Shown here piece by piece: positions 3,689 through 63,621 of a stretch of DNA of 64,000 nucleotides. Position 1 is the first letter of the stretch. Every line of letters begins with the position of its first letter. Under the pieces are notes generated by a model. It saw nothing but the letters and a program-made list of their open reading frames with translations. It did no database searches and was not told where the DNA came from. The stretch comes from Candidatus Saccharimonadota bacterium (GTDB lineage: Bacteria > Patescibacteriota > Saccharimonadia > Saccharimonadales > Saccharimonadaceae), in assembly GCA_030445245.1 (NCBI GenBank), contig JAUCSD010000001.1, positions 936,671 to 1,000,670 on the forward strand, given 5' to 3'. The position numbers were made by a program, and so were the translations under genes.

Positions 3689-6010
<2,322 letters not shown>

Positions 6011-26145: not shown

Positions 26146-27078
26146 TTACGCCAAGTGAACTGATTTATTAAGAAGAAAATTGTCGAGCGCAACTTCTAAC
26201 ATCTGTACGTTTGCTTGGGTCGTGAGGCTCGCAATATGAGGCGTAATAACTATTCGTTCATGTCTGAATAGTTCAGGATTGCCATGCGGTTCATTGAGAA
26301 CTGTATCTGCAACATACGTAAAGTGCGCCGATGCATTGAGAAGTTCAAGTACAGCCGTCTCATCTACAATTCCGCCTCGAGACGAGTTAATTAGAATGGC
26401 ATCGTCTGGCAGTAAAAGGAGCTTGCCTTTATCAATAATATTCTTGGTTTCATCAGTCAGCGGAAGATGGAGCGAGACAATAGTACATTGCTTGATCAGT
26501 TCATCTATAGAGGTGACTACGGTGATGCCCTCTGGTACATCGGCTGCGTTTACATAGGGATCATATACGAAGAATGCTTTATAGTTAAAGCTACTCAGTT
26601 TCTGATGAAGGAGTTTACCGACATTACCGAACCCGATCAGACCGATCATCTGCTCACTCATGGAAGACCCCATGAATTTGAGTCGGTTCCACTCAACAAT
26701 ATCTTGTTCGGTTAGCTGGTGTAGGTGGCGCAAGACAAGTAACATAACACTTACGACGTACTCAGCTACTGCATCCGCGTTTGCTCCTGCTGCATTGTAG
26801 ACAGCGATGCCTTCAGCCTTACAAAAAGCCAGATCGATATTATCTAAACCTGTTCCCACACGAATAATGCTTTTTAAATTGGGGAAAGATGTCTTGATTT
26901 GGTCGGTTACGCGTGTACCTGACCGAATAATAAGTGTCTCATATTGTTGCAACTCGCTACCCTCAAAGGATTTGGTGCCAGACACAACATGGAATGCATC
27001 TTGTGATAGTTTCACATTAACAATATCGAGATTAATAAGGTCCGGTTCCGTTACATATACGAGATGTGTCGTTATCAT
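26146..27078 (-). CDS. D-2-hydroxyacid dehydrogenase (3-phosphoglycerate dehydrogenase-like)
   Basis: 310 aa from ATG 27078 (an ATG 21 bases upstream is also in frame). The NAD motif is GLIGFGNVGKLL, and the catalytic set is present: Arg in NSSRGGIVDE, Glu in NEPHGNPELF and His in ITPHIASLT. This is the D-isomer 2-hydroxyacid dehydrogenase family; 3-phosphoglycerate dehydrogenase is the closest guess (VGTGLDNIDL), but no ACT domain is present. A sugar-acid or glyoxylate/hydroxypyruvate role is possible. TACAAT precedes the start by eight bases. Convergent with the GT4 gene. Confidence 0.82.
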   Translation of the reverse strand: MITTHLVYVTEPDLINLDIVNVKLSQDAFHVVSGTKSFEGSELQQYETLIIRSGTRVTDQIKTSFPNLKSIIRVGTGLDNIDLAFCKAEGIAVYNAAGANADAVAEYVVSVMLLVLRHLHQLTEQDIVEWNRLKFMGSSMSEQMIGLIGFGNVGKLLHQKLSSFNYKAFFVYDPYVNAADVPEGITVVTSIDELIKQCTIVSLHLPLTDETKNIIDKGKLLLLPDDAILINSSRGGIVDETAVLELLNASAHFTYVADTVLNEPHGNPELFRHERIVITPHIASLTTQANVQMLEVALDNFLLNKSVHLA

Positions 27079-27137
27079 ATTATTGTATTGTAGCATCATT
27101 GCTAAGCATTACCACGAAGGAGCACTTCGAGCTTCTA

Positions 27138-28958
27138 CTACTCGACAGTAACACTCTTAGCCAGGTTGCGTGGTTGATCGACATCGTTACCGCGAGCTAC
27201 GGCTATGTAATAGGCAAATAGTTGCTGCAATACGTTGAGTGCAATCGGTGCTAAAATATCAAGTTTTGTGTCCACGCGTACTACCGTCTCGGCATCAATC
27301 TCCTTGGCACTGTTTGTGATTGCCAAGACATGGCCACCTCTCGCATTGATCTCAGACAGCCCACTAATAGACTTATCGAATAACCACCCTTCCATAAGTA
27401 GGACGACTTCAAAGAAGCGATCATCCAATAGGGCAATTGGACCATGCTTGAGTTCACCGGTCGCATAGCCTTCGGCCTGGATGTATGAGATTTCTTTTAA
27501 CTTTAATGCCCCTTCCAAAGCTACGGGGAATAATGTGTCGCGTCCAAGGAAGAGCGCATGATCATAGCTGGCATATTTTTTAGCTACTTCTGCCATCTCT
27601 TTTTGATGCGTGGTGATTACTTTCTCGATTTCGTCAGGAAGCAATGCCAACTCCTCAACGTATTGCGCCGTTCTTTGGACGCTGACCCCTTTTGCCTGCG
27701 CCACCTGCACGCCGAACATCGTCAGCGCCGCCACCTGTGACGTAAAGGCCTTGGTACTGGCGACAGATATTTCCGGACCAGCATGCACGTATACACCACC
27801 ATCAACTTCACGAGCGATCGTCGAGCCAACTGCATTGATAATTCCAAGGGTAGTCACGCCACGACGTTTAACTTCCCGCAGACACGCCAGTGTATCAGCC
27901 GTCTCACCAGATTGCGATACTACGAGTGCTACGCTGTTTTTAGGCATATAGAAGGACCGATAGCGGAACTCTGACGCGATCACCACTTCAACGGTCAAAT
28001 TATCGACGAGCTGTTCAAGGTAGTAAGAGGCGAGTAAGCCAGCGTAATAGGCCGTACCGCAACCGATTATTGTCACATGTTCAATATCCTTTAACTGCTC
28101 GACAGTAAGGTTGAGGCCGCCGAGTTGAATACGTTTATCCTCAACGATTACCCGGCCGTTAAGGGTTGAACGAAGTGTCTGAGGCTGTTCGCTAATTTCT
28201 TTTAGAAGAAAATGATCATAACCTTGTTTTTGGATCGCTTGCATATCAACTTCGATTGTTTCAACTTGGGCTGAAATTGGCTGTGAGTTAAGATCTTGTA
28301 GCTCAACGCCGTCACGTCGACAAATTGCCATCTCACCATCATTTAGGTAAATAGCTTGGGATGTGTGACCAATAAGTGCCGAGGCATCGCTTGCAATCAG
28401 TGTCTCGTCTTTGCCGACACCGATGATAAGAGGACTTCCCGCTCGAGCCACGACTACCTCGTCAGGCTGCCGCGTTGAAACGACCGCGATACCATACGTG
28501 CCAACGACAAGCTGCAACGCCTTGCTTACCGCATCACATAATGACGTATCAACGCCATAAAAAGAATTAATAAGTGCAGCGAGGACTTCGGTATCCGTCC
28601 CACTAACAAAAGTGTGATCTTTAAGCTCGGCCTTCAGTTCCTTGTAATTCTCAATGATGCCATTATGCACCACATAAATATCGCCAGCCCTGTGCGGATG
28701 CGCGTTTATTTCTGAGGGCTCACCGTGTGTTGCCCAGCGAGTATGACCAATACCGACAGAGTCTTTGTTTTGATTGGTAGAAACGAGCTTGCCAAGCTCG
28801 GCAACTTTGCCGTTAGCTCGCAGTAGTGTTGCCTGATTTGAACCATCGATAGTGACGATCCCGGCCGAGTCGTAGCCTCGATATTCTAGTCGACGAAGGC
28901 CACTGAGTAATACATCTTGCGCATCACGTTTCCCAATATACCCAACAATCCCGCACAT
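27138..28958 (-). CDS. glmS: Glutamine--fructose-6-phosphate aminotransferase
   Basis: 606 aa, full length. Starts MCGIVGYIG with Cys2 as the glutaminase nucleophile; GHTRWATHG, SGTDTEVLA and SGSG-type glutaminase motifs are present. Two SIS domains follow (CGTAYYAGLLASYY and VSQSGETADTLACL; FLGRDTLFPVALEGALKLKE), and the chain ends with DQPRNLAKSVTVE, the family signature. It makes glucosamine-6-phosphate for peptidoglycan and the surface glycans assembled by neighbours. GGAGG lies nine bases before the ATG, an ordinary ribosome-binding-site start. Confidence 0.97.
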   Translation of the reverse strand: MCGIVGYIGKRDAQDVLLSGLRRLEYRGYDSAGIVTIDGSNQATLLRANGKVAELGKLVSTNQNKDSVGIGHTRWATHGEPSEINAHPHRAGDIYVVHNGIIENYKELKAELKDHTFVSGTDTEVLAALINSFYGVDTSLCDAVSKALQLVVGTYGIAVVSTRQPDEVVVARAGSPLIIGVGKDETLIASDASALIGHTSQAIYLNDGEMAICRRDGVELQDLNSQPISAQVETIEVDMQAIQKQGYDHFLLKEISEQPQTLRSTLNGRVIVEDKRIQLGGLNLTVEQLKDIEHVTIIGCGTAYYAGLLASYYLEQLVDNLTVEVVIASEFRYRSFYMPKNSVALVVSQSGETADTLACLREVKRRGVTTLGIINAVGSTIAREVDGGVYVHAGPEISVASTKAFTSQVAALTMFGVQVAQAKGVSVQRTAQYVEELALLPDEIEKVITTHQKEMAEVAKKYASYDHALFLGRDTLFPVALEGALKLKEISYIQAEGYATGELKHGPIALLDDRFFEVVLLMEGWLFDKSISGLSEINARGGHVLAITNSAKEIDAETVVRVDTKLDILAPIALNVLQQLFAYYIAVARGNDVDQPRNLAKSVTVE

Positions 28959-28995: not shown

Positions 28996-30828
28996 CTATT
29001 GCCCACCGTAGCCATAGCCGTAACCAGGGAATCGCACTGCTGGCTTATGGAAATTAGTGATCTTGAGTGGCTGCTCAAATGGCTTGTCGGCTGCAGCGAT
29101 ATAGAGCTCGCTATTATTCTTTGAGAGGAGAACGTACTTGTCACCATACCAACCATAGGCTGTGTCTTCGGATTGATTCGCCAGTGCTAAAGTATCTTTA
29201 CCGTCCTTGTCGCCAACAAAAAGGCTATTCTTTCCATCGCGTGATTCAGACCAAAATGTCTTTTGACCATTTGGCGACACAAGATAGGTCGGATAAGCGG
29301 TGTTATAGAACTTATCATCAGTGTTTGAAATACTTTTTACTGTACCGCCTTCATATTCGTAGTACGTCGCTGTCACATTATCAGCAGAAACTCTAAAATA
29401 AATTCCTTGTGGCTGATAGAGCGATGCATTAACAGTAATCTCGCGCTGCATCGCAAACTCCTTTACGCGTTGCTTCTGGCTACCGTCAGGATTAACAGTC
29501 ATAATGGCCGACTTTTTATCTGACGGTGCCGAAACGGACTGACCTTGATTCCAGACTTTTGTGTAAACTATTTTATTGTCCAATATATATGGATAGCCTA
29601 TCGACTCAGACTGATAATCGTAATAGTTTGAACCTGATGCTGTCTTCTCATCAAGAATCGTCAGTTTGCCCGTCTCGGCGTCATAACTTTTGAGTCGCTG
29701 TGTTTGACCGTCCCAGAGATTTGCATTATTGCGCGTAACAATGTAGATGAACCTGTGATCCGACCAGCCTACTAACTGAAAACTAGCATCACCTTCATCA
29801 ATGGTTTTTAGACTCCCCGATTTAGCATCAACAAGATAGAGTTGACCACTCTTTTTCTCATCTGCATCTCGTTTAGCCGAAAGTGCCATATAATTCCAAT
29901 CTCGAGCGGCGAGGAGAACTGTGTCATTATCGTTCTCGTTGCCCGTCCCTTCAACAACGACGCTGGCATTACTGCCATCAAGATAAGATTTCATCACATT
30001 GATTGTGCCGGTTTGCTTGCTCAGATAATACACATTTCCCACAGGTGTGAGTACGGCTTTGTTTGCATCAGCCTGATCAGTTACTTTAACTTCAATAGCT
30101 GTCTTATTGTAACCATCGAGACTTACCATGCCTTGAAGTGCTTTTTTATCTGCTGGTAATACAATTATCGCGATGCCCTTGTCGTCTGTCACTGCCGAGG
30201 TGTCATTTACCGTGATCGTTGCCCCGGCCAATATAGCATTAGTGATCTTATTGGTCACCTGGACTGTTACCTGCCGGCCTGTTGCCGCAAGTGACACATG
30301 AGCTTCTTTTGCCTCACTAAGAATAGGTACATCGTACGTCACTTCACCCGTTTTATAGTAGCCCTTCGCAATCTTAAGAGTGTAATGACCGACTGGCATA
30401 GCACCGAGTGTCACTTCGCCATTTTTGTCCGTCTTAGTATTTTTATCACCAACCGAAACTGTCGCTTGACTAACTGGCTTCATAGTTGAGGAATCCATGA
30501 CCATAACATGAATATCTTTCTTGATAAACGACCCGAGTATGCCATAGCGTGTTGTTGGCACGGCGAGAAGAATTGCCACAATGAGTACAACTGCAAAAAC
30601 GATTCCAGCAGCCTTGCCTCGTTTAGTGCTGAAAAAACGTTTGAGTCGGCCTGATTTCTTAACCGGCACGGTCGCACTATCGACAGACGCCTTTTCGTCT
30701 TCTGGCAATGAAGAGTCTTTCTTTTCTACCGCTTCCGTTGTTTCTTTTGGCTCTGAATCGTCGATTTTAGCGAAATCGTCGACATCTTCTTCAATCGCTT
30801 TTTTGGTTGTTTCTTCGTTTTTACCCAT
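28996..30828 (-). CDS. Membrane-anchored protein with two Ig-like modules and a propeller-like domain
   Basis: 610 aa. Residues 1-70 are acidic/basic and cytoplasmic; 73-93 (AAGIVFAVVLIVAILLAVP) span the membrane. Two carboxypeptidase-regulatory-like beta domains follow (IHVMVMDSSTMKPVSQATVS to about 180; VTVQVTNKITNAILAGATIT to about 265). From about 270 on, repeated strands such as NVYYLSKQTGTINVMKSY, GQLYLVDAKSGSLKTI, RLKSYDAETGKLTILDE and SLFVGDKDGKDTLAL suggest a TolB-like beta-propeller. Ends in a Gly/Tyr-rich tail. A surface binding role is likely. GGGGTGAAG precedes the ATG. Confidence 0.72.
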   Translation of the reverse strand: MGKNEETTKKAIEEDVDDFAKIDDSEPKETTEAVEKKDSSLPEDEKASVDSATVPVKKSGRLKRFFSTKRGKAAGIVFAVVLIVAILLAVPTTRYGILGSFIKKDIHVMVMDSSTMKPVSQATVSVGDKNTKTDKNGEVTLGAMPVGHYTLKIAKGYYKTGEVTYDVPILSEAKEAHVSLAATGRQVTVQVTNKITNAILAGATITVNDTSAVTDDKGIAIIVLPADKKALQGMVSLDGYNKTAIEVKVTDQADANKAVLTPVGNVYYLSKQTGTINVMKSYLDGSNASVVVEGTGNENDNDTVLLAARDWNYMALSAKRDADEKKSGQLYLVDAKSGSLKTIDEGDASFQLVGWSDHRFIYIVTRNNANLWDGQTQRLKSYDAETGKLTILDEKTASGSNYYDYQSESIGYPYILDNKIVYTKVWNQGQSVSAPSDKKSAIMTVNPDGSQKQRVKEFAMQREITVNASLYQPQGIYFRVSADNVTATYYEYEGGTVKSISNTDDKFYNTAYPTYLVSPNGQKTFWSESRDGKNSLFVGDKDGKDTLALANQSEDTAYGWYGDKYVLLSKNNSELYIAAADKPFEQPLKITNFHKPAVRFPGYGYGYGGQ

Positions 30829-30914: not shown

Positions 30915-32690
30915 TTACTCTATGTAGCGTACCGTTTCTGGTGATAGACGAAGTAAACCTTCGTCATGACGTCGCTGGTCAAGATAATGTGCAGTAAACC
31001 CAATTGATCGACTAAGCACAAACAGGGCGTTGAAGAATTCAATATCAACTAACTCTTTTAGCTGCTCCTGACCGTACCCGAGTTCAGACTCCAAGATATC
31101 AAGCATAATTGCAGCGATTGCCCCGTCAACATTCAAGATGAGAATATCCTTCTTTGCTGTCGTAACATGTTCAACTGATCGTGCAAACATAAGATAGCGG
31201 TCACCGTTAGTGTTGCCGGCAAATTGAAGCAATGCCTGAACGCGAGGATCAGGTAGATCAACCCGATATTTCTTGTGGCCAATTCCGGGTATAGCTACAC
31301 CTTTTTTTGCAAAGTTCTCCGTAAATGTTCGTGCCGCTATTTCTTCCTGAACGCCTGCAAGCCAGTTGTCGGCAGCATCATTAATTGCCCCACCAAAGCG
31401 TGGTCCGATCGTCAACATACCGGCCGCCAGACTCGATACAAGATCTTTTCCGGCTCGTGCTGCCACGATAGTATTGATCGCACCTGATACATACGGACCA
31501 TGATCAACCAACATACGCAAGACATAATCGGTAAAATTGATAGCTCTCTGAGAGTCAATTTGCACGCCAAGGAGCATAGATAGGACAAGTGAAGCCATAC
31601 TCTGGCGCTCAATGGTTGTGAGTAAGTCACTACCAAGCAAGCTGGTTTCACCATGCCTATCACCGGATATGTGACTCACGATTAAGCTTTTGTGACGCTC
31701 ACCTATCGTATCGGATACCACCTCTCGCATTTCATTCTTATACAGGGCAAGTGTCGAAGCAACATCAGCGAAGGTTTCACAGACAGTAGCACCAGCTTCA
31801 CGAAGAATGTCTTTTTTAGCTGAAGCTGATTCGTCATGAGTAGCAGCAAATGCCTTAGCATGTCCGAACTGCGGCGGCGTTTCGAATAGTTCTGCTACCG
31901 TACCGGCGATGTACACGATTAGTTCTTTGGTCAGCTTCTTTTGCTCTATAAGTTTGGCAATCTCATATTCATCCACTCCACCAAGCTCGCCAAAATACAC
32001 GATACGCTTGGTTTGAGGGTCAGCTTCTGCTAACAGCAACGCGTCAGCTGGACTTGTTAATGGAAACCTATCTCCACCCAGTGCTAACCCGAATGAGAGA
32101 CCTAAACCAGCGGATGTAACCGTGTGGATCAACTCATTTACAATACCTCCGGAAGTTGAAACCACTGCGCAGTTACCAGGACTAATAATGTTAGCCGCCG
32201 ATATCTGCGCATGTTGCGTTCCACCGATAGCCCCCAATTTAAATCTACCAGGTAGCAATATGCCCACTGAAGAGGGACCAACAATGAGTATGTTTCTTTG
32301 TTTAGCTAATTTCAAAATTTCCAACGTATGGAATTCGGGAGTCTGTTCGGCAAAGATTGATCCTACTTTAAGATTAGGCAGTAGCTCAAATGCCTGTTTA
32401 CTCGACGATAAGACGCGGCGAGCTGATTGAACGTTAATAAAACCCGTGCACGCACGTTGTTGCTGTTGAGTAAGTTTTTCCAAACCTGATACGACTGGAA
32501 TGATAACTTCACTCTGACCCCAAAAATAGCGCTCTTGCTTACGACCACTCGCAACTATCGCCATAATGCTTGGCTGCTGCTTGCCAATTAAAAAGTCGTA
32601 GTCCAGCATCGACTGAATAATCCCCGAGTGCGAACCAAGACTAATAATTTTCATATCTTTTTCTGCACGCAGTTCATCTATCTGGATCAT
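30915..32690 (-). CDS. aclA-like: ATP-citrate lyase large subunit (AclA-type, citryl-CoA lyase part)
   Basis: 591 aa, the usual AclA length. Residues 1-320 are a CoA-binding/succinyl-CoA-ligase-alpha-like half with the phosphohistidine loop PQFGHAKAFA (His277) and YFGELGGVDEYEIAKLIE. Residues 340-591 are the citrate-synthase-like half with the three catalytic residues in order: His397 (DHGPYVSG), His472 (GIGHKKY) and Asp522 (LNVDGAI), followed by GFTAHYLDQRR. Together with the next gene it would cleave citrate with CoA and ATP to acetyl-CoA and oxaloacetate. Start ATG overlaps the stop of the small subunit (ATGA). The assignment to the family is strong; substrate preference in this organism is inference. 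Confidence 0.9.
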   Translation of the reverse strand: MIQIDELRAEKDMKIISLGSHSGIIQSMLDYDFLIGKQQPSIMAIVASGRKQERYFWGQSEVIIPVVSGLEKLTQQQQRACTGFINVQSARRVLSSSKQAFELLPNLKVGSIFAEQTPEFHTLEILKLAKQRNILIVGPSSVGILLPGRFKLGAIGGTQHAQISAANIISPGNCAVVSTSGGIVNELIHTVTSAGLGLSFGLALGGDRFPLTSPADALLLAEADPQTKRIVYFGELGGVDEYEIAKLIEQKKLTKELIVYIAGTVAELFETPPQFGHAKAFAATHDESASAKKDILREAGATVCETFADVASTLALYKNEMREVVSDTIGERHKSLIVSHISGDRHGETSLLGSDLLTTIERQSMASLVLSMLLGVQIDSQRAINFTDYVLRMLVDHGPYVSGAINTIVAARAGKDLVSSLAAGMLTIGPRFGGAINDAADNWLAGVQEEIAARTFTENFAKKGVAIPGIGHKKYRVDLPDPRVQALLQFAGNTNGDRYLMFARSVEHVTTAKKDILILNVDGAIAAIMLDILESELGYGQEQLKELVDIEFFNALFVLSRSIGFTAHYLDQRRHDEGLLRLSPETVRYIE

Positions 32691-33859
32691 TTACTTAGTC
32701 CTTCCAATGCCGAGCCGAGCGCCTCCACTATTGTTGTCAATGGATCGTAGACGCCACCTAGTATGCCATATTGTTCCAGCGTTGCACGGATGTTTTTAAG
32801 TCCGAGCTCCTGCCGTGGCCCACCGCGTCGAACATAGATCTTAACATGCTGAGCCGCCAACTGCTTGGCATTCGCATCAATTGCCGCGATCACCCCGCTA
32901 AATGTTGTCGCAATGTCTGTAAAGTTTGCTACCGCCCCGCCGATAAACAGTACTTTCCTTGGTGCTGGTGACGCCAAAAGCAACTCGAGAACTTCGCTAG
33001 TATATTTTTGTGCCTCGTGCGCCTGTGGATTACCGCTATATTCGCCATAGTTGGCCAGGCCTTTGCCAAAACCTTTGTTATAAATTTCATCAGCAATCAC
33101 GACGCTCGCGCCGCCGCCCGACAACAATAAAAAGATTGATCCATTTGGATTAATCACACTCAAGTTAAACGATGCAACCGAACCTTTATCGAGCAGTCGC
33201 ACTGCAGTTTCCTGCGAATACGTCGTCTTTTTTGGCTCACGTATATCACTATTTTGCCAGCTGCTCACAAAACTTTGACCAGCGTCATCAACCTCAATCG
33301 CCAGATCTAGTAGTAAAATTCCGTTGTCTGTTTGAATGTAAGGATTAATTTCGAGGAACGTGAAGTGATTTTGCTTGTAGCTTTCGACAAGTGCATAGAG
33401 CTGCTCGACAGTAAACAATGTTTGTTGAGCCAATGCGTCCCAGTCGGTCGCTTCGTTAATCGCAACGGTCACAATACTCTCGGGATTTGTTTCAATATCA
33501 ACACCACCATGCTTACTGAGGGATAAGTTTAGCCCAGTCCGGCCGTGCGATATCGAGATATAGCGTTCGGCTACACTATCATGGCTGACATAGGGCTCAA
33601 CAATAAAATGCTCGAATCCTTCACTGACATATTTTTTTACAATTGCAGCAATGTCCATTTTTGGCACATCGAGCACAACCAAGCCGCGCTTGAACCGACC
33701 CTTCACCGCTTGGTCGACTTTCACAACGTAGCGCGAGAAACCTGCAATAGCCTTCAGCGAGTCGGCAGTAGTATCGATTCCCCAGCCAATATAGGGCAGA
33801 TCAAGTGCATCATGGACAATCTTTTTTGATATATATTCTGACAATTTTCTACGGGGCAT
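32687..33859 (-). CDS. aclB-like: ATP-citrate lyase small subunit (AclB-type, ATP-grasp part)
   Basis: 390 aa, matching the N-terminal third of eukaryotic ATP-citrate lyase and bacterial AclB. Motifs seen: FIVEPYVSHDSVAERYISIS, HGGVDIETNPE, FTFLEINPYIQTDNGILLLDLA (metal and nucleotide binding), LLLSGGGASVVIADEIYNKG, LANYGEYSGNP, and VRRGGPRQELGLKNIR (citrate/phosphate loop region). It carries the ATP-grasp fold that phosphorylates the His of the large subunit. First gene of a two-gene operon. GGATAAAC precedes the ATG. The ATG neighbours an acyltransferase gene on the same strand ten bases upstream. Confidence 0.9.
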   Translation of the reverse strand: MPRRKLSEYISKKIVHDALDLPYIGWGIDTTADSLKAIAGFSRYVVKVDQAVKGRFKRGLVVLDVPKMDIAAIVKKYVSEGFEHFIVEPYVSHDSVAERYISISHGRTGLNLSLSKHGGVDIETNPESIVTVAINEATDWDALAQQTLFTVEQLYALVESYKQNHFTFLEINPYIQTDNGILLLDLAIEVDDAGQSFVSSWQNSDIREPKKTTYSQETAVRLLDKGSVASFNLSVINPNGSIFLLLSGGGASVVIADEIYNKGFGKGLANYGEYSGNPQAHEAQKYTSEVLELLLASPAPRKVLFIGGAVANFTDIATTFSGVIAAIDANAKQLAAQHVKIYVRRGGPRQELGLKNIRATLEQYGILGGVYDPLTTIVEALGSALEGLSK

Positions 33860-33868
33860 AGTTTATCC

Positions 33869-35140
33869 TTATTCGGTCGTGTCTTCTTCTCTCAGTAAGA
33901 ATTTATCACTCAAGCGTTTACGTACGTCAGCCCATACTAATAAAAGCTTGTCTTTGTAGTTGATCGCCAACTGCGGTAATGTGAATTCTCGTTTTCCTTC
34001 GTATATGTGAGCGATGGACTGCGAGAAACGAACTGCGGGTGCGTCAACATATCTTTCGAATAAAAACGTCGCTATTGCTAGGACAGGCACGGAACACGCA
34101 ATAGCTACAACAACTGATCGGTTATATCCCATAAATTGGTGAAAATAGAGAAATAGACCAGTTGTCATCGTAAATAAGATGGGGATATGTACTAGGTAAA
34201 GTGAGAAGGTGTATCTACCCAGCATACTCATATATTTCATTGAAAATACTTTGGCAATTTGCGTCGTTGTTAATACGGTAAATACTGCGATACTTGCACC
34301 TATGGTTGTGTATAGTACAAAATTATTAATGCCCGTTGTAACGGGTAATTCCAACGCTGAATAAATCGTATTCGTAACAGCCCCTACTGGAAAACCGCCA
34401 CAAAAAATAGCAATACCTACGAGAAGTACTGCGCTCAAACCGCGCTTCCTAGGTTGTAGATATCCTTTGCTATACAAATCTGCGAAAATCATGCCAATGA
34501 TAAATGGGATAAACCACGTATTAAACAAGATAACCAGCAATAGAGTGTAGGCGAACCATCGATGTTTTGAATGGGCAAACAACAATGCAAACCCAAACAC
34601 CAAAAACGAACCCACAAATTCTGACGTCATCGTCCATAGTACGTTGTTGTATGCGCTTTGGCCGCTAACGAATATTCCCCAGACAGCATTTCTAACAGCA
34701 TCAAAAAGACTAGGTACAAATGCCCAGTTCATTGCGAGCCATCCCGACTGCGTTACAACAGCAGCCTGTGTTGTATGAGATGCGCCCAGTTTAATCAAAA
34801 GATAACAAATAAGTACAGAGGCGAGCGCTGGCAACATAAGTCGGGTATACCGCTTCGTTGCTAAACTTTTAATAACAGACGGATCTTTCGTTTGAAAAAA
34901 TTTGATAGAAAGAACAAATCCACTCAAAACGAAGAATATAGCGACAGCAAATGTCCCTGAGAGCAGAGCCATGACTGGATTGCCATATAAGTTATCTTCA
35001 AAACGAGTATGTTGCACTAAAGTTGGATTGCCAATAGGCCCAAAAAATGCCAACAAATAGAATGCCAACAAAAAGTGATATAGCACGACAGTCACGGCTG
35101 CAAGACCACGTAATCCCTCTAACTCCTTGAAATGACGCAC
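33869..35140 (-). CDS. Acyltransferase 3 family membrane protein (OafA-like)
   Basis: 423 aa with about ten spans and a GTG start. MRHFKELEGLRGLAAVTVVLYHF carries the R-G-x-A-x-x-x-V-x-x-x-H signature of the acyltransferase 3 family, with the conserved His in the first span; AVAIFFVLSGFVLSIKFF follows. It would O-acetylate (or otherwise acylate) surface glycans or peptidoglycan outside the membrane, using an acetyl donor from inside. Its C-terminal 60 residues are basic and cytoplasmic. Placed directly upstream of the ATP-citrate lyase pair on the same strand, so possibly co-transcribed with an acetyl-CoA-producing enzyme. Confidence 0.85.
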   Translation of the reverse strand: MRHFKELEGLRGLAAVTVVLYHFLLAFYLLAFFGPIGNPTLVQHTRFEDNLYGNPVMALLSGTFAVAIFFVLSGFVLSIKFFQTKDPSVIKSLATKRYTRLMLPALASVLICYLLIKLGASHTTQAAVVTQSGWLAMNWAFVPSLFDAVRNAVWGIFVSGQSAYNNVLWTMTSEFVGSFLVFGFALLFAHSKHRWFAYTLLLVILFNTWFIPFIIGMIFADLYSKGYLQPRKRGLSAVLLVGIAIFCGGFPVGAVTNTIYSALELPVTTGINNFVLYTTIGASIAVFTVLTTTQIAKVFSMKYMSMLGRYTFSLYLVHIPILFTMTTGLFLYFHQFMGYNRSVVVAIACSVPVLAIATFLFERYVDAPAVRFSQSIAHIYEGKREFTLPQLAINYKDKLLLVWADVRKRLSDKFLLREEDTTE

Positions 35141-35190
35141 CTTATTAATAGCGTTATACCCTCTTCCTACCAGCTGATTATACCATGATA

Positions 35191-35337
35191 ATGGATGTTG
35201 TCAGGCTCAGTCATTATCAGGAATTGGATGTCTTCGCTAAAACTTACGGGCGTTTTCAGTACCAACCAAAAGTGAATACCCTCATCATGAAGCGGTTAAC
35301 TGAACTCGTTATTTATTTTTTGTGGCCTAAGGCTTGA
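35191..35337 (+). CDS. Possible small protein (48 aa)
   Basis: A 48-codon frame fills the gap between two minus-strand genes (starts MDVVRLSHYQELDVFAKTYG, ends YFLWPKA then TGA) and its end overlaps the convergent nucleotidyltransferase gene by 25 bases. TATACC is six bases before its ATG, like the leaderless genes of this window. No motif recognised. It could equally be a remnant. Confidence 0.3.
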   Translation: MDVVRLSHYQELDVFAKTYGRFQYQPKVNTLIMKRLTELVIYFLWPKA

Positions 35338-35765
35338 TTGATTCGCGTAGAGGAGTCGGCTTTTTCTACGCCCCCCACTCCGAAGATCATCTGTATACCT
35401 CTTGTTCTACACATAGCCGCCTCTGGACCAGGAATTGCTTCTGGGTCAACTCGGTCACCACCATTCGCAAAGATCAGTTCGTCCTGCGGATATCTATCGG
35501 CAAGCATGCTGAGTGTTTCCGTTACGGGATACCTTGGATCTTCTTTATCGATCGCAATGACTACCTCGTCCACATCCCGGAGAGCAGCGAGTAACCTTGC
35601 GCGATTCTGTTCACTAAGGATAATCTTACCTTTTTTTGTAATCTGTTGCATGTCGCTATTAACGATGACCACCAGCTTATCACCCATTTTTGCAGCTGCT
35701 TCAATTAAATCAATATGACCACCGTGCAGTGGGTTAAAGAATCCACTAATAATAACTATCTTCAT
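35313..35765 (-). CDS. Cytidylyltransferase-like nucleotidyltransferase
   Basis: 150 aa. Single-domain HxGH nucleotidyltransferase: GFFNPLHGGHIDLIEAAAKM at the N-terminus, then VVIVNSDMQQITKKG and SEQNRARLLAALRDVDEVV as in the RfaE2/glycerol-3-phosphate cytidylyltransferase group. GGDR near 103 and a C-terminal STRINQALG (S-T-R/S-S motif) fit. It would make an activated sugar- or polyol-phosphate for surface glycan synthesis. AAGGAG is well placed before the ATG. Substrate unknown. Confidence 0.82.
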   Translation of the reverse strand: MKIVIISGFFNPLHGGHIDLIEAAAKMGDKLVVIVNSDMQQITKKGKIILSEQNRARLLAALRDVDEVVIAIDKEDPRYPVTETLSMLADRYPQDELIFANGGDRVDPEAIPGPEAAMCRTRGIQMIFGVGGVEKADSSTRINQALGHKK

Positions 35766-38058: not shown

Positions 38059-39468
38059 ATGTCAGACACGTCTTTAGAATTTAGCAAGCAACTCAAAAAA
38101 CACGAAACATCCATACCTGGCCTAATCATCTTCGATTTATCAGTTTTTGGCGATAGCCGCGGTTGGTTCAAAGAGAATTGGCAGCGTGAGAAAATGCTTG
38201 CCATTGGACTTCCTGATTTTGGCCCTGTCCAGAATAACTTTTCATTCAATGGCAAGCGCGGCACCATGCGCGGCATTCACGCCGAGCCATGGGATAAATT
38301 TATTTCTGTTGGCTACGGAAGCTTTTTTGGAGCGTGGGTAGATATACGCGAAGGAAGTGAGACCTACGGTCAAACGTTTACTGCTGAAATTGATGCGACA
38401 AAAGCAATCTACGTTCCTGCTGGTGTCGCCAACTCATATTTAACGCTTGAGGATAATACGGTTTATTCATATCTCGTTAATGATCACTGGTATCCAAACG
38501 CAAGTTATACGTTCCTAAGTGCAACTGATCCTGCATTAGCTATTGACTGGCCAATTCCCGTTGACGAATGGGAGATGTCTGAAAAAGATAAAAATCATCC
38601 GCTCCTGATAGATGTTACTCCTGTAAAATCAAAGAAAACATTGATTATCGGCGCAAGAGGACAACTGGGTCGTGCACTCGCTATTGAATTTCCAGATGCC
38701 GAACGGGTAGATCGAGATACTTTCGATATAAGTAACCCTACGATCATTTCCGAACGTCGTTGGCGTGATTATGACACAATTCTCAATGCCGCTGGCTACA
38801 CAGCAGTCGACTTAGCCGAGACCTCAGAAGGTCGACGAGATGCATGGCTAAGTAACGCTACAGCCTTAACTAATTTAGTTAAAATCGCAAACGAAAACAA
38901 TATTACCCTTGTTCATGTTTCGAGTGACTATGTATTTGATGGTACGGAAGCAATTCATACCGAAGATGAACAGCTGAGTCCACTTGGTGTTTACGCACAA
39001 AGTAAAGCTGCCGGCGACCTTATCGTTAGCACCTCACCTCATCACTACGTCCTCCGTACAAGTTGGGTTATCGGTGAAGGCAACAACTTCGTCCGTACGA
39101 TGGTATCTCTTGCAGAACGTGGCATCAAGCCAAATGTCGTTAATGATCAGATTGGGCGACTCACCTTTACCGAAGATCTTGCCAAAGGTATCAAGCATCT
39201 CATTAAAACACAGGCAGCCTACGGCACATACAACCTCTCAAATGACGGCGAACCAGTGAGTTGGGCTGACATTGCCAAAGAAGTATACGCACAGGTAGGT
39301 AAATCGGCTGATGACATTACTCCCGTTACAACGAGACAGTATTACGAAGGCAAAGATAACATCGCTCCTCGTCCACTCCAAAGCACTCTCGACCTTACTA
39401 AGATAACAAAGGTGGGATTCACCCCTCGTGATTGGAGAGTATCTCTTCATGATTACCTTAATAAGTAA
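38059..39468 (+). CDS. rfbCD: Bifunctional dTDP-4-keto-rhamnose epimerase-reductase (RfbC-RfbD fusion)
   Basis: 469 aa. Residues 15-185 are the cupin epimerase RmlC: DSRGWFKENW, GTMRGIHAEPWDKFI (catalytic His75), YVPAGVANSYLTL (the second His of the usual AHGF is Asn here) and VNDHWYP. Residues 192-469 are the reductase RmlD: LIIGARGQLGRAL, NAAGYTAVDLAE, SSDYVFDGT, YAQSKAAGD (Tyr-x3-Lys) and VNDQIGRLTFTEDLA. Together they turn dTDP-4-keto-6-deoxyglucose into dTDP-L-rhamnose in two steps. Fused forms of this kind are known in some bacteria. A TATAAT is placed seven bases before the ATG, so it may have its own leaderless start. TAATG overlaps the next gene. Confidence 0.93.
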   Translation: MSDTSLEFSKQLKKHETSIPGLIIFDLSVFGDSRGWFKENWQREKMLAIGLPDFGPVQNNFSFNGKRGTMRGIHAEPWDKFISVGYGSFFGAWVDIREGSETYGQTFTAEIDATKAIYVPAGVANSYLTLEDNTVYSYLVNDHWYPNASYTFLSATDPALAIDWPIPVDEWEMSEKDKNHPLLIDVTPVKSKKTLIIGARGQLGRALAIEFPDAERVDRDTFDISNPTIISERRWRDYDTILNAAGYTAVDLAETSEGRRDAWLSNATALTNLVKIANENNITLVHVSSDYVFDGTEAIHTEDEQLSPLGVYAQSKAAGDLIVSTSPHHYVLRTSWVIGEGNNFVRTMVSLAERGIKPNVVNDQIGRLTFTEDLAKGIKHLIKTQAAYGTYNLSNDGEPVSWADIAKEVYAQVGKSADDITPVTTRQYYEGKDNIAPRPLQSTLDLTKITKVGFTPRDWRVSLHDYLNK

Positions 39469-61700: not shown

Positions 61701-62771
61701 ATGCGTCTCCTCGAACATGAAGCTAAGGCTCTTCTACGTGCAAACATGATCCCCATTCCTGAGGGCGTGATCATCACGAAGCACGACACGCGTAGCTCTA
61801 TCCACCTACCTACCGTTTTGAAATCACAAGTCCCAGTAGGCGGGCGGGGTAAATTAGGTGGTGTTGTTGTTGTCAAATCTAAAGAAGAGCTTGAAAGTGC
61901 AATCGACACCCTTTTCTCGCTTGATATTAAAAACTACACGCCAAATGTTCTTTTAGCTGAAGAGAAGATATCGATTCTGCGTGAACATTACGTTTCCCTA
62001 TTGATCGATCGAGACAGTGCAAGTATCCGCCTAATTGCCTACAAAGACGGTGGTGTTGAAGTAGAGAATAATATCTCCTCACACGACTTCTTAAATATTG
62101 CGATTGATGAATCAACACTAGATAGTGACGCGAAACAGTTAGCTTCATATCTAGAATACGACATAAAACTCGTTCGCCCCCTCCTCGTCCATCTCTACGC
62201 GACATTTACACGTAATGATGCCACACTCCTAGAAATCAACCCCCTCATCTACACAACAGAAGGTACTTTAATTTGTGGTGACTGTAAGATGGAGCTCGAC
62301 GATGCAGCTCGTTTTCGTCATCCCGAGTGGAATTTTGAAGACAAGCCAAGCGACACTAACTTCGTTTCACTTGATCCAGACGGCTCCATAGCTACTATCG
62401 CCAACGGCGCTGGACTGGCTATGGCAACCGTTGATGCCGTAGCAGCCCGCAAGATGAAGCCAGCTAACTTTCTTGATATTGGTGGTGGCGCCAACACCGC
62501 AAGCATTCTGATAGCATTCAAACGGATTATGGAATTTAAACGGATTGATGCGATTGTTATCAACATCTTTGCGGGCATTACGCGCTGTGATGAGGTGGCA
62601 CGTGCCATTATCGAAGCAAAGAAACAGATCGATTCACTTCCCCCTCTATTTATTAGGTTGGCTGGCACGAACTTCGAAGAAGCCGTTGCCTTACTAGCGG
62701 CGGAGAATATAACAACAATGGCTTCGCTCGACGAGTGCCTTGCCGCTGCTAAGGAGGTGACTCATGCGTAA
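61701..62771 (+). CDS. sucC-like: Succinyl-CoA synthetase beta subunit-like
   Basis: 356 aa, slightly shorter than the usual 385-400. ATP-grasp part: LEHEAKALLRANMIPIPEGV, VLKSQVPVGGRGKLGGVV, TLLEINPLIYTTEGTLICGD and MELDDAARFRHPE. Ligase-CoA part: NGAGLAMATVDAVAARKMKP, ANFLDIGGGANTASILIAF and NIFAGITRCDEVA. All are hallmark segments. It binds the nucleotide and closes the CoA-ligase active site with the alpha subunit. Starts five bases after a glycosyltransferase and overlaps sucD. The reaction (succinyl-CoA to succinate with ATP, or another acyl-CoA) cannot be fixed from sequence. Confidence 0.9.
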   Translation: MRLLEHEAKALLRANMIPIPEGVIITKHDTRSSIHLPTVLKSQVPVGGRGKLGGVVVVKSKEELESAIDTLFSLDIKNYTPNVLLAEEKISILREHYVSLLIDRDSASIRLIAYKDGGVEVENNISSHDFLNIAIDESTLDSDAKQLASYLEYDIKLVRPLLVHLYATFTRNDATLLEINPLIYTTEGTLICGDCKMELDDAARFRHPEWNFEDKPSDTNFVSLDPDGSIATIANGAGLAMATVDAVAARKMKPANFLDIGGGANTASILIAFKRIMEFKRIDAIVINIFAGITRCDEVARAIIEAKKQIDSLPPLFIRLAGTNFEEAVALLAAENITTMASLDECLAAAKEVTHA

Positions 62772-63621
62772 AGAACTCTTCACTGCTAAAAATGTTATCG
62801 TCCAAGGCATTACCGGCTCCCATGGGGCTTTTCATACTGCTACTATGCGAGCTAGCGGAACCCACATAGTAGCTGGTACATCTCCAAATAAGGCCGGCCA
62901 GGTCATCGACGGCGTGCCAGTATACGCTACTATTCATGCCATTCAACAAGACCACCAAGTGGACATAAGTGTCATTTTCGTCCCCGCACCTTTTGCTAAA
63001 GATGCCATGATTGAAGCCATCGAAGCAAAAGTTCCCCTTATTATCTGCATTACCGAGGGTGTACCCGTACATGACATGCTCGAGGTGAAAAAACAAGCCG
63101 AGCAGAGTAACGTAACAATCATTGGACCAAACTGTCCCGGGGTGCTTGTACCAGGCATTAATAAATTAGGCATCATTCCGGCGAGCATGGGTACTCCTGG
63201 CAGAGTCGGCATCGTTAGTCGCTCAGGGACACTCACTTATGAGGCAGCCGCGGGCCTAACCGCTCGTGGTATTGGCCAAAGATACATTATCGGTATTGGG
63301 GGTGATCGTATCCAAGGTACTAATTTTATTGATTGTCTGCGACTATTCGAAGAGGACGACGAGGTAAGCTCGATCGTACTTATAGGAGAAATTGGCGGCT
63401 CGTCCGAACAACATGCCGCTGATTACATTAAATCCCATGTCTCAAAGCCGGTATACGCTTACATAGCTGGCCACTCAGCCCCTATCGGTATTCAACTGGG
63501 CCACGCTGGAGCAATCTTAGGGGGTGAGGGCGAGACAGCCGCTTCTAAAACGGAGGCATTACAACAGGCAGGCGTTACGACAAGTATAAGTATCGTTACG
63601 CTCATCGAATCAGTGAAGTGA
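62764..63621 (+). CDS. sucD-like: Succinyl-CoA synthetase alpha subunit-like
   Basis: 285 aa, full length. VIVQGITGSHGAFHT is the CoA-binding loop; SPNKAGQVIDGVPVY, CITEGVPVHDML, GPNCPGVLVPGINKLGIIPA, VGIVSRSGTLTYEAAAGL and LGHAGAI (phospho-His247) complete the set. A GAGGTGACTC ribosome binding site precedes the ATG, which overlaps sucC by eight bases. TGA stop. Together they form an ADP- or GDP-forming acyl-CoA synthetase; substrate-level ATP formation is likely. Confidence 0.95.
   Translation: MRKELFTAKNVIVQGITGSHGAFHTATMRASGTHIVAGTSPNKAGQVIDGVPVYATIHAIQQDHQVDISVIFVPAPFAKDAMIEAIEAKVPLIICITEGVPVHDMLEVKKQAEQSNVTIIGPNCPGVLVPGINKLGIIPASMGTPGRVGIVSRSGTLTYEAAAGLTARGIGQRYIIGIGGDRIQGTNFIDCLRLFEEDDEVSSIVLIGEIGGSSEQHAADYIKSHVSKPVYAYIAGHSAPIGIQLGHAGAILGGEGETAASKTEALQQAGVTTSISIVTLIESVK

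Follow-up and report, generated by a model that had tools for sequence, protein, structure and literature searches.

ATP-citrate lyase (ACL) genes aclA and aclB are used as marker genes of the reductive TCA (rTCA) cycle in metagenome surveys (PMC6662431). Within the CPR, an archaeal-like ACL bearing GHAGA has been described from a gracilibacterium, where the enzyme was called 'rarely detected in CPR' and citrate transporters were reported (PMC6851277), and aclAB has been listed as enriched in groundwater Ca. Saccharimonadia MAGs (PMC12577380). A reverse, ATP-yielding synthesis of citrate by ACL has been proposed for Desulfobacter postgatei, as cited in PMC9560492. The routes by which Patescibacteria, lacking pyruvate dehydrogenase, a TCA cycle and acetate activation, come by their acetyl-CoA are poorly understood. 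Here we describe an ACL pair from a Candidatus Saccharimonadota bacterium, found in a stretch of 64,000 nucleotides that is called the window below.

Organization of the ACL locus

As listed in Table 1, the two ACL genes belong to a minus-strand run with the order cytidylyltransferase-like gene, O-acyltransferase, ACL small subunit, ACL large subunit, carboxypeptidase-regulatory-like protein, GlmS and D-2-hydroxyacid dehydrogenase. The run sits inside a large glycan cluster of the window with dTDP-rhamnose genes, glycosyltransferases and an ABC exporter. The initial annotation had reported a complete ACL pair with an ATGA overlap and an O-acyltransferase gene just upstream on the same strand. 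Open reading frames, Pfam matches and solved-structure matches agree on the pair, and the upstream gene was found in that place. Both ACL genes are preceded by purine-rich ribosome sites, that of the second gene being of the GGAAGGA type, and the O-acyltransferase gene and the ACL pair are probably one transcript. A candidate promoter with an extended -10 lies immediately before the O-acyltransferase gene, although such sites are no commoner in the region than in shuffles. Every ACL-bearing genome of the order in which both genes were readable has this pair in an unchanged arrangement, and chance is therefore excluded. The initial annotation used the plant names of the subunits; in the Chlorobium convention (PDB 6hxj) alpha (AclA) denotes the large subunit and beta (AclB) the one with the ATP-grasp domain.

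Table 1. Features of the ACL run, in order of transcription (window positions).
Feature	Position	Strand	Remarks
Cytidylyltransferase-like gene	35313..35765	-	Upstream of O-acyltransferase
Candidate promoter of run	35177..35204	-	CTGACA-16-TATAAT with TG, 11/12; pattern only, weak
Membrane O-acyltransferase	33869..35140	-	Pfam Acyl_transf_3; ends 9 bp upstream of ACL small-subunit gene
ACL small subunit, 390 aa	32687..33859	-	ATP-grasp domain and citrate-binding domain
ATGA overlap of subunit genes	32687..32690	-	Small-subunit stop TGA shared with large-subunit ATG
ACL large subunit, 591 aa	30915..32690	-	SucD-like citryl-CoA synthetase part (phospho-His277) fused to citryl-CoA lyase part (His397, His472, Asp522)
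Membrane-anchored protein, carboxypeptidase-regulatory-like repeats	28996..30828	-	Next gene of ACL run
GlmS (glucosamine-6-phosphate synthase)	27138..28958	-	In ACL run
D-2-hydroxyacid dehydrogenase family gene	26146..27099	-	Last of ACL run

Two other features of the same glycan cluster region were recorded. A succinyl-CoA synthetase pair (61701-62771 and 62764-63621, both on the plus strand) directly follows a glycosyltransferase gene, although the remainder of the TCA cycle is missing from the genome; SucC, with 290 bits, misses the family cut-off of 370, and SucD scores 369 bits, above its cut-off. The order glycosyltransferase-SucC-SucD is repeated in a second contig (L027, 488-3239), and the pair possibly provides succinyl-CoA for glycan acylation. 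At 38059-39468 of the window, RmlC and RmlD (dTDP-4-dehydrorhamnose epimerase and reductase) are fused in one protein of 469 amino acids.

Identity and active-site residues of the enzyme

The large subunit matches solved ACLs along both of its domains, with E values of 1e-104 for Methanosaeta (6hxi_B) and about 1e-100 for human ACLY, and contains PF00549 and PF00285 within one frame. The small subunit matches 6hxi_A at 2e-57 and Pfam Citrate_bind at 3e-51, with PF24948 and PF16114 above their cut-offs.

His277, His397, His472 and Asp522 are located in QFGHA, DHGP, GIGH and NVDG, respectively, and are invariant across 18 aligned sequences including the human and Methanosaeta enzymes. We take the phospho-His277, in GHA, to correspond to human His760, and His397, His472 and Asp522 to His900, His975 and Asp1026, the residues of citryl-CoA cleavage. 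The initial annotation had named these four residues as kept, which holds at the same positions throughout the patescibacterial large subunits (56/56, 55/56, 56/56 and 56/56 in the above order). When 30 other large subunits are added, the phospho-His, His472, Asp522 and Arg483 are each present in 86 of 86 sequences and His397 in 85. The ATP-site residues Lys47 and Arg55 and the Mg (metal)-site residues Asn172 and Asp185 of the small subunit are invariant in the 54 patescibacterial rows. The citrate pocket is formed by residues whose roles in the human enzyme we take as established. Gly276, Asn312, Phe313 and Arg345 were found in 54/54 patescibacterial rows and Thr314 in 52/54; the alignment with human ACL gives G309, N346, F347, R379 and T348 as their equivalents. 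Human Ser343 is replaced by Ala309 in the small subunit of the window, and other prokaryotic ACLs have Gly or Ala there. Every defining feature of ATP-citrate lyase (EC 2.3.3.8) that was examined is present in the predicted proteins.

We also considered whether the citryl-CoA lyase half is nearer to citrate synthase (GHKKYR/DPR versus GHRVYK/DPR) and rejected this, since PF00285 scores 73-84 bits in patescibacterial ACLs and 69-97 bits in other ACLs.

A patescibacterial clade with its own signatures

Scanning genome contigs for ACL relatives with a single sequence gave no match, while an alignment-based scan did. The closest named contigs come from Saccharibacteria and Levy-, Woese-, Roizman-, Magasanik-, Kaiser- and Uhrbacteria (45-72% identity); all others show at most 39%. 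In the tree, the 56 ACLs of the patescibacterial group form one clade (SH-aLRT 100) on a long stem branch, separate from the 30 sequences of archaeal and rTCA type. The clade is drawn from MAGs labelled patescibacterial or just bacterial, with one exception (L091). The ACL of the window groups with one that is 72% identical to it, from another genome of the same family. A tree proposed in the initial annotation for finding the donor group shows no recent outside donor, and the idea that the gene was recently acquired from an archaeon or an rTCA organism was rejected because the window sequence nests inside the patescibacterial clade. Saccharibacterial ACLs are spread over several subclades, interleaved with those of other Patescibacteria; the gene has therefore been repeatedly moved or lost within the group. 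According to the Citrate_bind profile, 25 of the 294 genomes of the order carry ACL.

The clade differs from ACLs elsewhere at both active sites, with GHAK versus GHAG, SGA[VLMI]N versus SGAHN and GHxKY versus GHR[IV][KH]. Lys279, following GHA, is present in 55 of 56 patescibacterial large subunits, and Gly stands there in 30/30 others. Position 405 is hydrophobic (V/L/M/I) in the clade and His in all other ACLs. Lys474-Tyr475, one residue beyond GIGH, occurs in 56/56. These changes could alter the kinetics or the substrate.

The excepted contig, L091, is labelled Gemmatimonadetes and bears an ACL of the patescibacterial clade, probably through a binning error or a transfer. In a Woesebacteria MAG (L077:4001-5812) the large subunit lies in two frames, 4001-4957 and 4991-5812. 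The break falls precisely at the junction of the SucD-like part with the citryl-CoA lyase part, and the linker contains two in-frame TGA codons.

Gene neighbourhoods in relatives

Several genes of the run recur beside ACL in relatives. A homologue of the O-acyltransferase lies upstream of ACL in L056, a homologue (family F40) of the carboxypeptidase-regulatory-like protein follows it in L043, a GlmS gene stands directly after it in L056-L059, and a homologue of the cytidylyltransferase-like gene lies two genes upstream in L102. A GlmM-like mutase follows ACL in L032, L033, L035 and L061, with a GNAT acetyltransferase after it in L032 and L061, and MurB follows in five Levybacteria. At 12 of 43 patescibacterial loci and at 0 of 30 other loci, a GlmS, GlmM-like or MurB gene lies no more than 4 kb from ACL (p 0.001, ignoring kinship). 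The opposite holds for aconitase, found within 4 kb at 0/43 versus 15/30 (p 1e-7, ignoring kinship); aconitase and IDH adjoin none of 55 patescibacterial ACLs.

GNATs lie about 1-4 bases ahead of ACL in Saccharibacteria and Kaiserbacteria-type genomes. They make up 12 of 59 operon-adjacent genes versus at most 2 of 98 control genes at the same loci (p about 2e-4, ignoring kinship), the 12 consisting of 10 from one scan, one scanned separately and one near copy. Family A4 was found in Saccharibacteria and Kaiserbacteria and family A5 in Kaiserbacteria-type genomes; the link amounts to roughly two to four independent associations with two or three GNAT families, and the neighbourhood link as a whole comes from a small number of independent lineages. 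The GNATs next to ACL look like general and polyamine acetyltransferases, with no clear sugar enzyme among them. Their assignment as glucosamine-6-P acetyltransferases found no support, PDB profile matches favouring other GNATs.

In two distant lineages (L063:62-4004 and L094:452-4004), a zinc alcohol dehydrogenase gene and a 2-amino-3-ketobutyrate CoA-ligase-like gene (Pfam Aminotran_1_2, named by eye) lie directly upstream of ACL, which suggests a link of ACL with threonine/glycine and acetyl-CoA. In one patescibacterial MAG an AMP-forming acyl-CoA synthetase gene (L071:1072-2814) precedes the ACL pair at a distance of 26 bp.

Absence of partner enzymes from the genome

The genome is complete, consisting of a single contig of 1,164,240 bases (1.16 Mb; 99.45% complete by the tool's estimate), and the source bacterium is probably host-dependent. 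PF00285 matches only ACL in this and all 294 genomes of the order, where no citrate synthase was found. Aconitase (PF00330) was not found in the genome, although 14 of 14 control genomes were positive. The same was observed, with most controls positive, for pyruvate/2-oxoacid:ferredoxin oxidoreductase (POR/OFOR, PF01855), LDH/MDH-type malate dehydrogenase (PF02866), phosphotransacetylase (PTA, PF01515) and the AMP-binding family of AMP-forming acetyl-CoA synthetase (PF00501). No citrate importer was detected in the genome with the CitMHS family profile, which found matches in control genomes. ACL is an orphan in a complete genome in which none of these partners was found. The initial annotation had seen a paradox in an ACL without a TCA cycle, which is borne out by these absences. 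It had also presented ACL as surprising for the CPR, but reports of the enzyme from Saccharimonadia and from a gracilibacterium had already been published.

Although GlmS is present, full-length GlmU was not found in the genome, which has only GalU/RmlA-type N-terminal matches; on sequence grounds, the standard acetyl-CoA step of UDP-GlcNAc synthesis appears to be missing or replaced. Some other candidates were tried and rejected. The mevalonate pathway as a sink of acetyl-CoA was discarded, HMG-CoA synthase being found in 0 of 294 genomes of the order. For the E1 component of pyruvate dehydrogenase, E1_dh covers, among the matches listed, only profile positions of about 80-220, mostly in frames of about 290 amino acids, as in a split transketolase; the match of the window's own genome is weak and lies outside the matches listed. 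ACL and PTA never occur together in the 294 genomes, but by genus the p value is 0.42, and replacement of PTA by ACL was not retained.

Proposed role and alternative explanations

We propose that ACL, working in the forward direction, supplies acetyl-CoA from scavenged citrate for acetylation and for cell-envelope sugars. This is somewhat favoured by the data: the gene pair, the conserved residues, the clade, the missing enzymes and the altered neighbourhood are observed, and activity, direction, citrate import and product use are inferred. Weak points of the proposal are that CitMHS gave no importer, that full-length GlmU was not found, that the adjacent GNATs are not clearly sugar enzymes, that few independent lineages carry the neighbourhood link and that the active-site changes of the clade could alter kinetics or substrate. 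Citrate, ATP and CoA would give citryl-CoA by way of phospho-His277, and the His397/His472/Asp522 site would cleave citryl-CoA to acetyl-CoA and oxaloacetate. Because the genome contains neither citrate synthase nor aconitase, citrate must come from outside and would be imported from the host or the environment. Acetyl-CoA would pass to cell-envelope amino-sugar metabolism and to acetyltransferases, of which the O-acyltransferase that probably shares the ACL transcript is the most likely here; oxaloacetate would probably be transaminated to aspartate. Acetyl-CoA for glycan acetylation had been one idea of the initial annotation, and it is the one favoured by the repeated occurrence of the clade beside GNAT acetyltransferases and amino-sugar genes. 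The role is probably surface acetyl supply rather than carbon fixation, because the ACLs of relatives adjoin acetyl-attaching and cell-wall sugar genes. A bolder version, that the patescibacterial subfamily has become uncoupled from the TCA cycle as a dedicated, perhaps sole, source of acetyl-CoA from host citrate for surface glycans and acetyltransferases, is offered tentatively. If true, it would be a salvage route of an epibiont living on its host's citrate.

The other idea of the initial annotation, that ACL forms one branch of a partial or reductive TCA cycle like that of rTCA bacteria and archaea, has in its favour that ACL is the diagnostic rTCA enzyme and that aconitase stands in half of the non-patescibacterial ACL loci. 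In this genome it found no support and is highly improbable, given the missing aconitase, POR/OFOR, LDH/MDH-family malate dehydrogenase and citrate synthase and the lack of aconitase and IDH beside the patescibacterial ACLs. The enzyme might instead run in reverse, replacing citrate synthase and making citrate and ATP from acetyl-CoA, oxaloacetate, ADP and Pi, the citrate being exported or used as a chelator. The absence of citrate synthase throughout the order and the proposal for Desulfobacter postgatei (cited in PMC9560492) are in line with this, and the upstream pair of L063 and L094 could make acetyl-CoA from threonine. As for PTA, AMP-forming synthetase and POR, however, the genome offers no recognised source of acetyl-CoA, nor has it an aconitase to use the citrate, and the neighbours of ACL are consumers of acetyl-CoA, which makes reversal quite unlikely.

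It is also conceivable, if unlikely, that the enzymes of the clade have come to use a different tricarboxylate or acyl substrate (e.g. a methylcitrate-like acid) as acyl-CoA ligases/lyases of ACL fold. The clade-wide changes at K279 (from G), 405 (from H) and K474 and Y475, the long stem branch and the lack of a known citrate source point that way; the citrate pocket, with four residues invariant and T314 nearly so, and the retention of all catalytic residues argue for citrate. Oxaloacetate rather than acetyl-CoA could be the wanted product, for making aspartate, pyrimidines or wall precursors of the diaminopimelate type. The genes after ACL in L063 are MurB and, beyond it, a diaminopimelate decarboxylase-like gene (read by eye), and MurB lies next to ACL in other Levybacteria too. 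The neighbouring genes of most lineages draw on acetyl groups or amino sugars rather than on aspartate, and we regard oxaloacetate supply as improbable. For the preferred forward reaction, the clade with its acetylation and amino-sugar neighbours offers a concrete, testable route of citrate salvage, and the presence of acl genes in a CPR MAG is no safe sign of rTCA carbon fixation.

Comparison with known ACL systems

In the literature searched (subscription papers lay outside the search), no description was found of the clade's signature residues, of an orphan ACL or of a neighbourhood of acetylation and amino-sugar genes. ACL in the CPR is already known in kind, and the window enzyme is a distinct variant in an unusual setting. 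What is new here is one deep patescibacterial ACL clade with its own active-site residues, its orphan status and its changed neighbours.

The strongest solved match is the two-subunit ACL of Methanosaeta concilii (PDB 6hxi, 6znw), which shares the domain plan, the small-then-large order and the catalytic and citrate-pocket residues. It differs in having only 37-38% identity over the large subunit and a small subunit of 421 instead of 390 amino acids, and GHAK, SGA[VLMI]N and GHxKY set the patescibacterial clade apart from it. ACLs of rTCA bacteria and of Thermoplasmata and Cloacimonadota (the L099-L135 set) are the same enzyme family encoded by the same gene pair, but they form a separate clade (SH-aLRT 100) and often stand beside aconitase and IDH, as patescibacterial ACLs never do. 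The gracilibacterium enzyme likewise comes from a CPR genome, and citrate cleavage to acetyl-CoA and oxaloacetate was proposed for it, but it carries GHAGA and is most similar to archaeal ACLs, unlike the GHAK clade described here (PMC6851277). The aclAB genes of Ca. Saccharimonadia MAGs belong to the same class and were listed without analysis of role, clade or context (PMC12577380). An analogy in working is eukaryotic ACLY, e.g. plant ACLA2-HAT1 (PMC10241871), where acetyl-CoA derived from citrate serves acetylation, although that enzyme is fused or of plant type and its citrate comes from mitochondria.
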